In this document: in pieces, positions 20,458-22,871 of the stretch
Layout: each line of letters begins with the position of its first letter
Position numbering within the stretch: the stretch's first letter is position 1
Source: Rhizobium sp. Q54
GTDB taxonomy: Bacteria; Pseudomonadota; Alphaproteobacteria; SMXS01
DNA length: 45,359 nt
Direction of reading: 5' to 3'
Assembly: GCA_945907245.1 (NCBI GenBank)
Contig: CAMDTB010000024.1
Location: 1 to 45,359, forward strand
Translations under genes and position numbers: made by a program
Notes under the pieces: generated by a model
The model's input: the letters and a program-made list of their open reading frames with translations, nothing else
The model's database searches: none
What the model was told of the DNA's origin: nothing

Positions 20458-21105
20458 CTAGATTTCTTCGGTCTTGCGGATCACCCGGCCGACCACTTCG
20501 ACGCCGTCCAGCGGCACGATCGGCTGGTAGTCCGGATCGGTGCTCTGCGGCTCCAGCCGCTCCGGCGGACCCTTCCGCCAGGTCTTGAAGGTGGCGCGGC
20601 CCTCGTGGCGAAACACATAGTGCTTGCCGTCGACGAGGGCGCGGTCGCCCAGGTCGACGATCACGATGGTGCCTTCCGGCGCCAGCCGGTCCATGCTCTG
20701 ACCCTTGACCTTCAGGGCGATCAGGTTGTCGTGGTGGTGGACCACTGGCAGCCATTCGGCGGCGTCGCCGGGCATATAGGGCTCCACCGTGTCGGCGAGA
20801 CCGCCGGCTTCGACCCAGCTTACCAGCGGGACGCGGACGATGCCGGCAGGCGCCCGGATCGCGGCCGACGGCGCCCCGCCGCCCTGTCCGGACAGCCAGG
20901 CCACGTCCACTTCCAGCGCTTCGGCCAGCTCCAGCAGGTAGCGCGGCGCATCGACGCCGCCCTGCTCCAGCTGGTTGACCGATTGCTGCCGGACCGCGCC
21001 CTTGCCGCGGGCGCGGCGGCGCGCGCTGACCCGCCGCGCCAGCTCGGCCTGGCTCCAGCCTCGGGCTTCCCGGGCCTTCGCCACTCTGTCTGCCAGATCG
21101 TTCAT
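20458..21105 (-). CDS. CI/LexA-like self-cleaving XRE repressor (S24 peptidase)
   Basis: Protein of 215 residues starting MNDLADRVAKAREARGWSQ. The N-terminal XRE HTH (residues 3-70) carries an unusual basic insert (ARRRARGKGAVRQQ). The C-terminal peptidase S24 domain has the cleavage site A100-G101 in VPLVSWVEAGG, nucleophile S137 in KGQSMDRLAPEG and lysine K174 in ATFKTW. These proteins bind DNA as dimers and cut themselves when RecA filaments form, releasing an SOS-type response. No phage genes surround it, so it is a chromosomal or relic repressor. It is transcribed away from a Cys-rich mini-gene across an operator-like region, which suggests self-control and control of that gene. Confidence 0.93.
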   Translation of the reverse strand: MNDLADRVAKAREARGWSQAELARRVSARRRARGKGAVRQQSVNQLEQGGVDAPRYLLELAEALEVDVAWLSGQGGGAPSAAIRAPAGIVRVPLVSWVEAGGLADTVEPYMPGDAAEWLPVVHHHDNLIALKVKGQSMDRLAPEGTIVIVDLGDRALVDGKHYVFRHEGRATFKTWRKGPPERLEPQSTDPDYQPIVPLDGVEVVGRVIRKTEEI

Positions 21106-21116
21106 GGTATATAGAT

Positions 21117-21132
21117 TACAATAAAAATTGTA
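21117..21132. promoter_or_regulatory. Operator-like palindrome O1 at the repressor gene
   Basis: TACAAT-AAAA-ATTGTA, perfect 6-bp arms, 12 nt before the repressor start codon. The sequence AAAAATTGT inside it recurs at 21168-21176 beside the divergent promoter, and a looser site (ACAAA...TTTGT) lies near 21206-21225. Several related sites between a CI-like gene and a divergent gene are the usual plan of an autoregulated switch. The protein-site pairing is inference. Confidence 0.6.
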
Positions 21133-21175
21133 GTAACTCAACCATTTTTGGCGGGAAATCCTACCAGAAAAATTG

Positions 21176-21205
21176 TTGACCATAAAAAGCCGACTCGCCT
21201 ATCAT
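21176..21205 (+). promoter_or_regulatory. Sigma70-type promoter for the Cys-rich mini-gene
   Basis: TTGACC, an 18-nt spacer, then TATCAT. It points at the gene starting at 21244. The -35 box directly touches the second AAAAATTGT repeat, so a repressor bound there would block it. Confidence 0.6.
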
Positions 21206-21243
21206 ACAAATGTTCGTGTTTTGTTCAATTGATGGAGGGGCCG

Positions 21244-21450
21244 ATGAAGCAGCCTGCATACAAAGCCTGGGCCCGTTCGAAAGAGCTGAAAATCCGCTGC
21301 CGCCTATGTCAGATCGTACTGGTCAAAGGATGGCCCCCAAGCCCGTGTTTTCGTCCGGAATGCCGCTTCTCCAACGAATCCCCGGTCAACGAGGGGCGTA
21401 GCACGATTTGCAGTTCCCTCGGCGGCGGCGATTATTCGGAATTCCGCTAG
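21244..21450 (+). CDS. Cys-rich mini-protein divergent from the CI-like repressor
   Basis: Protein of 68 residues starting MKQPAYKAWARSKELKIRC. GGAGGGG 7 nt before the ATG is one of the best ribosome sites in the window. Four cysteines, C19-x2-C22 and C35-x4-C40, plus C56, suggest a small zinc-binding fold; the rest is basic at the N-terminus and polar at the end. I recognise no family. Its promoter overlaps operator-like repeats of the divergent self-cleaving repressor, so it is a candidate DNA-damage-induced gene. Confidence 0.6.
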   Translation: MKQPAYKAWARSKELKIRCRLCQIVLVKGWPPSPCFRPECRFSNESPVNEGRSTICSSLGGGDYSEFR

Positions 21451-21519: not shown

Positions 21520-22194
21520 ATGAAGGGGATACGATCCGCAGGCATGGTCTGCGCCATGCTGTCCTGCCTCGCGGCGGGGCCTTCAACGGCGCAGCCGGCA
21601 CCATCCGGCGGCGTCGACGTCCAGCTGCGTGTGGACGACCTGGTCGAATCATACGCCGCCTCGAAGACCTCGCTGGCGTTCCTGATCCGCGACATCAGCT
21701 TCGGCTACGAGCTGTCGGGCACCGGCCGCGGCGCGCTGGGCCCGCAGAAGTTCAGCAAGCCCAGGCAGGATGTCGACAATGCGATCACGCCCGGCAAGGA
21801 ACCGCGCGGCATCATCATCGTCAAGGGTTCGGGCGACCAGCCTGTCCTGCGGATCCGAATGACGGGGCAGAAGGCCGACATCGGCGTGCAGGGGAAGTTC
21901 ATCAGGAGCGACTGGAGCATGCTGGTGGAGGGCAAGACGGTCACCATCATCGCGCCGGCCGAGGGACTCGGCATTCTTCCGGGCGTTCTCAAGCAGATCG
22001 GCACCGCCATCAACGAGGAGGTGAGGGAGCAATTGACCAATCTTCCTGCCCCCGGTCTCGACAAGCTCGAGTTGCGGACCAACCGGACCGAAGGCGGCGA
22101 CCAGGTTATCATCCAGGGCAACAAGATGGGCTTCACCATCAGCTATCCGAGGGTGGCCGCCACCTATAGCGCCGAATTGAAAGCCAGCCCCTGA
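21520..22194 (+). CDS. Exported protein of unknown function, paralog 1
   Basis: Protein of 224 residues. The signal peptide MKGIRSAGMVCAMLSCLAAG ends near STAQPAP (cleavage at A-Q). The mature part is beta-rich with no cysteine and no catalytic motif I know. The segment TPGKEPRGIIIVKGSGDQPVLRIR followed by FIRSDWSMLVEGKTVTI (quoted in parts) recurs in the next gene as APGQEPRGF, KGRSGQPVLRIW and FVKGDWNAL. The two are therefore tandem paralogs of a periplasmic or surface family. It starts 69 nt after the Cys-rich mini-gene on the same strand, so co-transcription is possible. Confidence 0.78.
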   Translation: MKGIRSAGMVCAMLSCLAAGPSTAQPAPSGGVDVQLRVDDLVESYAASKTSLAFLIRDISFGYELSGTGRGALGPQKFSKPRQDVDNAITPGKEPRGIIIVKGSGDQPVLRIRMTGQKADIGVQGKFIRSDWSMLVEGKTVTIIAPAEGLGILPGVLKQIGTAINEEVREQLTNLPAPGLDKLELRTNRTEGGDQVIIQGNKMGFTISYPRVAATYSAELKASP

Positions 22195-22214: not shown

Positions 22215-22871
22215 TTGCTGCGCGTCATGGCTTTCGCCGTGGCGCTGACGGCCGTACCCGCCGCGGCGCAGGAAGCTCCAACCGGGATCGATGTCCACAT
22301 CGCCATCAGCGGGCTCAGCGAGACCTATGCCGGCGGCGACGCGATGCGGTTCGCGGTGACCCGCGCGCGGCTTCAATACACCCTGTCGGCCAACGGAACC
22401 GGATTCCTGGAGAGTCAGCGGATCGGCAACGCGCCGCAATCCCGGGACGAAAGCTTCGCGCCGGGGCAGGAGCCGCGCGGCTTCACCCTCGCCAAGGGGC
22501 GCAGCGGCCAGCCGGTGCTGCGCATCTGGGCGCAGGAGCTGCCCAACGAGGTGACCGTGCCCGCGCGGTTCGTCAAAGGCGACTGGAACGCACTGTCGGC
22601 CGGCCGCCGGGTGACGCTCGCCGCTTCGGCGAATGATCTGCAGCGTGCCCACGGCGTCGCGCAGCGGATCGGGCAGACCGCGACCCAGTGGCTGCGCCAG
22701 AACTTCAGCGACGCCATCCCGTTCATGACCATCCGTATCGGCGCTCTGGCGCTGCGGCGCATGGACCTGTCGCGCGACGACGTGATCATCGACGGCACCG
22801 GCAGCCGGCTGACCGTCGCTTATCCGGACGGCGAACTGAGTTACAGCGCGCCCGTCTCCGTGGGCCGGTAG
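22215..22871 (+). CDS. Exported protein of unknown function, paralog 2
   Basis: Protein of 218 residues from TTG at 22215 (MLRVMAFAVALTAVPAAAQ, a complete signal peptide); the ATG at 22227 would leave the signal without a basic start. The mature protein is a diverged copy of paralog 1: GIDVHIAISGLSETYAGGD, PGQEPRGFTLAKG, QPVLRIW, FVKGDW, and a final beta strand LTVAYPDGELSYSAP. It is 20 nt after paralog 1. No domain of known function is visible. The stop codon falls in a small tandem repeat that reaches the convergent MFS gene. Confidence 0.75.
   Translation: MLRVMAFAVALTAVPAAAQEAPTGIDVHIAISGLSETYAGGDAMRFAVTRARLQYTLSANGTGFLESQRIGNAPQSRDESFAPGQEPRGFTLAKGRSGQPVLRIWAQELPNEVTVPARFVKGDWNALSAGRRVTLAASANDLQRAHGVAQRIGQTATQWLRQNFSDAIPFMTIRIGALALRRMDLSRDDVIIDGTGSRLTVAYPDGELSYSAPVSVGR

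Follow-up and report, generated by a model that had tools for sequence, protein, structure and literature searches.

In phage 434, the glutamines of the repressor's recognition helix read ACAA. Since no published statement of the 434 operator rule was found in the open-licence literature, the record of the phage itself was read as a test of the ACAA-N6-TTGT rule; in its cI-cro gap the pattern occurs twice exactly and once with 7/8 letters, the sites being 22 and 23 bp apart. Another arrangement, described from Acinetobacter, is that of UmuDAb and DdrR, in which an S24-type repressor is encoded divergently from a small lineage-specific protein, with a common promoter region (PMC11332147). In Caulobacter, RogA is presented as a host-encoded CI/LexA-like repressor of gafYZ which does not have the key catalytic residues and whose target promoter carries GGAA-N4-TTCC repeats (PMC9632790). 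Small proteins tied to LexA are described as well, among them the Gifsy antirepressors, which act on the repressor (PMC3121763), and gp7 of GIL01, which is reported to strengthen LexA and to block its cleavage (PMC4551915).

The locus presented here lies in the window, a stretch of 45,359 nucleotides, and consists of a gene for a 434-type repressor and a divergent gene for a 68-residue protein with four cysteines, referred to below as the mini-gene and the mini-protein. It is rather probable that the two form a phage-434-type immunity switch, fixed on the chromosome within one order of environmental Alphaproteobacteria and, in the genus of the window, joined to the SOS response as a double lock. 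Neither such a pair nor, for Alphaproteobacteria, an overlap of a LexA box with a CI operator was found described in the titles and abstract openings of the open-licence literature. The features are as follows.

20458-21105, minus strand: repressor of the 434-CI type, an ORF of 215 aa with HTH and S24 domain
21113-21141, minus strand: possible repressor promoter, TTGAGT (21136-21141)-17-TAATCT (21113-21118), read by eye, weak
21118-21131, no strand: putative operator O1, ACAATAAAAATTGT; exact ACAA-N6-TTGT in 8/8 genomes, the palindrome reaching 21117-21132
21163-21176, no strand: putative operator O2, ACCAGAAAAATTGT; 7/8 letters in 7/7 genomes of the genus, exact in the one genome of a second genus (G007)
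21176-21205, plus strand: mini-gene promoter, TTGACC-18-TATCAT, 10/12 letters in a consensus scan
21206-21219, no strand: putative operator O3, ACAAATGTTCGTGT; 7/8 letters in the window
21212-21226, plus strand: LexA box GTTCGTGTTTTGTTC, a perfect GTTC-N7-GTTC overlapping O3, just past the mini-gene -10
21234-21239, plus strand: ribosome-binding site GGAGGG of the mini-gene; GGAG 10 nt ahead of the start in 8/8 genomes
21244-21450, plus strand: Cys4 mini-protein of 68 aa, with C-x2-C and C-x4-C
21520-22194, plus strand: exported paralog 1, whose start resembles a signal sequence by eye; perhaps co-transcribed as an output
22215-22871, plus strand: exported paralog 2, its start codon uncertain

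The repressor and the mini-gene as a chromosomal pair

Both the N-terminal HTH_3 domain and the C-terminal Peptidase_S24 domain of the repressor score above the Pfam cut-offs. Phage 434 CI is the top-listed match to it in the phage collection, and direct comparison gives 35% identity between the two proteins. The recognition helix reads QQSVNQL, compared with QQSIEQL in 434 CI, and its glutamines Q40, Q41 and Q45 are invariant in 8/8 repressor orthologues. An earlier note on this DNA had recognized a complete S24 repressor by the cleavage site A100-G101 and by S137 and K174, a reading borne out by the alignment, in which these residues are invariant in 8/8 orthologues and fall on the Ala-Gly, Ser and Lys of 434 CI. 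As judged from its domains, residues and operator type, the protein is a putative CI/LexA-type self-cleaving S24 repressor of the 434 CI group.

The mini-protein, noted before as a divergent product with the C-x2-C / C-x4-C pattern, proved equally consistent: its four cysteines are invariant in the alignment of the eight orthologues, all of them encoded divergently from the repressor, and other positions invariant in 8/8 include I24-V27, S57, L59, G61, D63, S65 and E66. The start codon varies between orthologues (ATG, TTG, GTG), and the gene is single-copy in its own genome (E<=0.001). Values of dN/dS range from 0.08 to 0.33 in 27 of 28 pairs, the 28th being saturated and not computable. The mini-gene is a real gene under purifying selection; a chance ORF is ruled out by its conservation together with dN/dS.

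Searches of Pfam, NCBIfam and PHROGs at E<=1 gave nothing for the mini-protein, and none of the eight orthologues matched Pfam at E<=10. Its profile gave no significant match among PDB sequences (best E 1.1, to bL36), and the AlphaFold model, with a pLDDT of 49, was unusable. A search of 385 genomes of the class, in which the best 15 candidates per genome were scored, so that distant relatives may escape, gave 20 genomes with a match at E<=0.01. Five of these were already known, and in the 3-kb loci of the other 15 a regular expression found neither the Cys4 pattern at the match nor an S24-like ORF. Among viral contigs 34 stretches fitted the mini-protein pattern, none of which was confirmed as a relative; the phage collection held no relative (one row, E 0.6), and neither did the plasmids.

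In the genome collection the order comprises one family with three genera and 10 genomes. The search for the mini-protein beside S24 repressors elsewhere, proposed in the earlier note, recovered the pair in 8/10 of these: in 7/7 genomes of the genus of the window and in G007. In all eight the two genes point away from each other, 133-139 bp apart, and among the 10 genomes the mini-gene was never found away from the repressor. The repressor occurs in 9/10 genomes. In the third genus, one genome (G008) has the repressor, in which the cleavage residues are retained at the corresponding positions (by eye), and the mini-gene was not found there; the neighbours of this repressor are related to the oxidoreductase and the 121-aa protein listed below. 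Since it is kept alone in this genome, the repressor must do something without the mini-protein. In the last genome, G009, neither gene was found.

The locus is syntenic in the five genomes of the genus that were read over 14.6-20 kb. The order of genes in all five is TetR, oxidoreductase, two MFS genes, the 121-aa protein, repressor, mini-gene and the two exported paralogs, followed by MFS, DUF983 and RNB nuclease, and then, in four of them, by topoisomerase I and DprA, the fifth stretch ending within the RNB gene. In G006 the locus is on a 3-kb contig, on which only the nearest neighbours are visible. G007 has the repressor, the mini-gene and the MFS pair; no exported paralogs were seen in the 20 kb covered there. 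Ten neighbouring proteins were scanned, nine of which belong to chromosomal-type families, the remaining one, of 121 aa, having no family. The remark that no phage genes surround the repressor is thus right for the neighbours tested, and the pair is conserved in the order as an ordinary chromosomal gene pair, with phage genes not beside it. A resident prophage is ruled out by the chromosomal-type neighbours and the synteny.

Putative operators, promoters and the LexA box in the divergent gap

Three sites had been read in the gap, namely a perfect TACAAT-AAAA-ATTGTA site, a second one touching the TTGACC-18-TATCAT promoter and a looser third one, and all three stand. The first lies at 21117-21132 and contains the O1 core, exact in 8/8 genomes; the second, at 21163-21176, meets the -35 of the mini-gene, the last base of O2 being its first base; the third, at 21206-21219, keeps 7/8 letters and overlaps the LexA box that the earlier note missed. 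Sites with at least 7/8 half-site letters number three in 7/8 gaps and two in that of G004, while shuffled gaps are expected to hold 0.06-0.10. O3 is exact in 5/7 genomes of the genus and in G007, and it is lost in G004. O1 lies 42-45 bp from O2 in the genus (51 bp in G007), and O2 lies 43 bp from O3 in the six genomes of the genus keeping O3 (40 bp in G007). In the 400 bp ahead of the G008 repressor two sites with 7/8 letters, none of them exact, lie 155 and 354 bp from the start.

The spacing of 18 in the mini-gene promoter is common to all seven genomes of the genus (in G005 by eye). Transcription from the possible repressor promoter, which has O1 in its spacer, would begin on the ATG or beside it, giving a leaderless transcript. 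The consensus scan did not report this promoter; it did report a weaker promoter-like site on the opposite strand, at 21228-21201 (0.4 expected).

The LexA box of Caulobacter is given as GTTCN7GTTC (PMC9578287, Table 1). A box of this form is present at the third site in 7/7 genomes of the genus, with 0.002-0.006 expected per gap, and it is kept in G004 although O3 is gone. It is absent from the gap of G007, where a third exact CI site takes its place; the third site there being CI-only, either one genus has acquired the LexA link or the other has lost it. Since the box lies over the third site in 7/7 genomes, control by the general SOS repressor is predicted. Of the private damage switch proposed earlier, the CI-type repressor, the intact cleavage residues, the multi-site operator and the conserved mini-gene remain; the word private does not.

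In the genome of the window GTTC-N7-GTTC has 80 matches, as compared with 24 for the backward control. Sixteen of the 80 stretches were read, a biased sample picked mainly for AT-rich spacers. Boxes were found 49 nt before lexA, 39 nt before a gene for a dinB-type Y-family polymerase, 40 nt before a radical-SAM gene and 35 nt before a gene for an Lhr-type helicase, and a further one is located at the start of an S24 protein resembling UmuD. Several of the 16 fall inside coding sequence and are probably chance occurrences. The spacer type of the mini-gene box, NTGTTTT, is common to the box of the radical-SAM gene and to three other stretches. It is also worth recording that SOS-type boxes precede three ORFs with no Pfam match, which are possible new SOS genes of the genus: 30 nt before a 66-aa ORF (L084 1395-1592, minus strand), 32 nt before a 76-aa ORF (L086 733-960, plus strand) and 96 nt before a 225-aa ORF (L088 900-1574, minus strand).

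Exact matches to ACAA-N6-TTGT, the only ones taken into the count, so that weak sites may exist besides, number 39 in the seven genomes of the genus, as compared with 44 for the backward control. Twelve of the 39 fall at the repressor/mini-gene locus, and 12 other loci were read. As the operator pattern is not enriched genome-wide, the switch looks local, with no wider regulon seen. Identical sites outside the locus are common to at most three genomes. One of them, ACAAACATTTTTGT, common to G001, G004 and G005, lies within a longer palindrome in the two that were read and looks like the site of another regulator; two other common sites belong to the close pair G000/G006, one of these being inside a coding frame, and one is found in G002/G005. 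Separately, a palindrome, GAAACAAACATTTTTGTTGGTTTC, recurs in the loci L103 and L112, near position 1501, and at G005:C21:38110; in both L103 and L112 it precedes a gene with a similar start, and it is likely the operator of another regulator.

A probable double lock and the possible role of the mini-protein

From this layout, a double lock on the mini-gene, set by the neighbouring repressor and by LexA, is probable. The repressor bound at O1 would limit its own synthesis, and bound at O2 and O3 it would shut the mini-gene, whose start site LexA would shut too. Because O3 overlaps the LexA box, CI and LexA would compete there. DNA damage would lead, through RecA filaments, to the self-cleavage of the repressor and of LexA, and the mini-gene, perhaps with the exported paralogs, would be transcribed only after both repressors are relieved. 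The weakest step of this scheme concerns the product, which may be a small metal-binding switch partner, a co-repressor or an antirepressor, standing to the repressor as DdrR does to UmuDAb. We favour this partner reading because every mini-gene found has the repressor beside it, because UmuDAb-DdrR has the same layout, and because small proteins acting on LexA-type control have been described (PMC4551915, PMC3121763); a role as an effector is about as likely. It is somewhat unlikely, on present evidence, that the mini-protein represents a new family of Cys4 metal-dependent SOS co-regulators, which would bind the 434-type repressor or LexA and time the re-closure of the double lock; in that case a lambdoid immunity switch without its phage would help, as an accessory, to time the SOS response of the host in this order.

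The best of the alternatives, and a quite possible one, is that the mini-protein is itself the effector, made upon damage to inhibit or modulate some cell process (division, transcription or a nuclease, for instance), and that the paralogs are additional effectors encoded in one operon with it. LexA boxes usually precede effectors, and in 7/7 genomes of the genus the paralogs directly follow the mini-gene, with no terminator-like site found between the mini-gene and paralog 1. They are in tandem, are about 33% identical to each other and were assigned to no protein family. The model of paralog 1 (pLDDT 82) has a beta-rich fold; Foldseek returned no match for it at E<=0.001, and the highest Z in a second structure comparison was 5.3, with mixed beta proteins as the matches. 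No function was read for paralog 1, since the structure searches gave no clear match. Two observations weigh against an effector, yet both are compatible with it too: among the 10 genomes of the order no mini-gene stands apart from the repressor, and the paralogs were not found beside the mini-gene of G007. The latter also bears on the earlier suggestion that the exported paralogs are perhaps part of the output of the switch, which agrees with their position throughout the genus; as they were not found beside the mini-gene in the second genus, they are not a fixed output.

It is unlikely that only the LexA box counts at the third site. The mini-gene would then be an ordinary SOS gene with no double lock through O3, and the 434-type repressor would answer another input or just trim basal expression through O1 and O2. 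The box is indeed the steadier of the two elements, being kept in all seven genomes of the genus, of which five have an exact O3 and one has lost it. Nevertheless, G007 has three exact CI sites and no LexA box, so that there the work must fall to the CI sites by themselves, and the invariance of the cleavage residues of the repressor in 8/8 orthologues fits DNA damage as its input.

Equally improbable is that the locus is the relic of a phage-type or GTA control module, comparable to the control of gafYZ by RogA in Caulobacter, and that what it first controlled was a late-gene activator. A survivor of this output would be a gene that follows the mini-gene in G007 and encodes a 182-aa PTSQT protein (L020 944-1489, minus strand; the same as L048 9104-9673). 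Relatives of the repressor at E<=1e-30 occur in 15/385 genomes of the class, five of them from the order and ten from elsewhere (L117-L126); eight of these ten match over the S24 part only. Five of the ten, L119-L123, also encode a PTxQT protein near the repressor, divergently wherever the repressor frame is visible, and the PTSQT protein of G007 is related to the two of these five with which it was compared (26% and 28% identity). One compared PTxQT protein has a sub-threshold match to DUF6456 (E 0.077), and opposite the repressor of L125 there is a DnaA-type HTH protein (Bac_DnaA_C, E 2.9e-12). GafY is a DnaA-type HTH protein. For the PTSQT gene as GafZ or antiterminator Q all matches are sub-threshold, with E 0.19 for the weak Q-like one of the G007 protein. 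This may point to such repressors being set opposite small operons of phage- or GTA-type activators, the family matches being sub-threshold except for the DnaA-type one. Against a relic stand the lack of any Pfam match in 2/3 scanned PTxQT proteins, the presence of the PTSQT gene in 1/10 genomes of the order, and RogA itself, which is described as without key catalytic residues and with GGAA-N4-TTCC target repeats, unlike this repressor (PMC9632790). As a separate observation, in L119-L121 the genes for the S24 repressor and the PTxQT protein flank one for a cysteine-free small protein of 64-78 aa (...EVIDGEFDSVDLD...), for example at L121 2205-2396, plus strand.

The locus is a clear example of an immunity switch of the lambdoid type that selection has kept on the chromosome as a gene pair, without phage genes next to it. 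With the LexA box laid over a CI operator in one genus and not in its sister genus, two related genera could be compared to test how a phage switch became connected to the SOS network of its host, and the mini-protein is a concrete orphan protein to be tested as a repressor partner.

Comparison with described systems

The closest likeness is to the immunity region of phage 434, which also has three sites of the ACAA-N6-TTGT type between divergent genes, and whose repressor, 35% identical to the present one, shares with it the glutamines of the recognition helix and the aligned Ala-Gly, Ser and Lys. Unlike in phage 434, no phage genes are present here, the Cys4 protein stands where 434 has Cro, and in one genus a LexA box covers the third site. 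The sites are also spaced differently, at 42-45 bp in the genus of the window as against 22-23 bp in the phage, and therefore cooperativity need not be alike.

UmuDAb-DdrR is likened to this locus by layout only, both having a small protein divergent to an S24 repressor and a common control region. Acinetobacter is without LexA, whereas LexA is present here, and UmuDAb has an unusual DNA-binding part, in contrast to the 434-type repressor of this pair. RogA is, like the present repressor, a host-encoded CI/LexA-like protein of Alphaproteobacteria, but the cleavage residues are intact in 8/8 repressors here, and the target of RogA is a GTA activator. The Gifsy antirepressors and gp7 resemble the mini-protein as small proteins tied to LexA. 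They differ in that the Gifsy repressors are not cleaved and the Gifsy antirepressor genes lie outside the immunity region, while gp7 of GIL01 strengthens LexA and blocks its cleavage.
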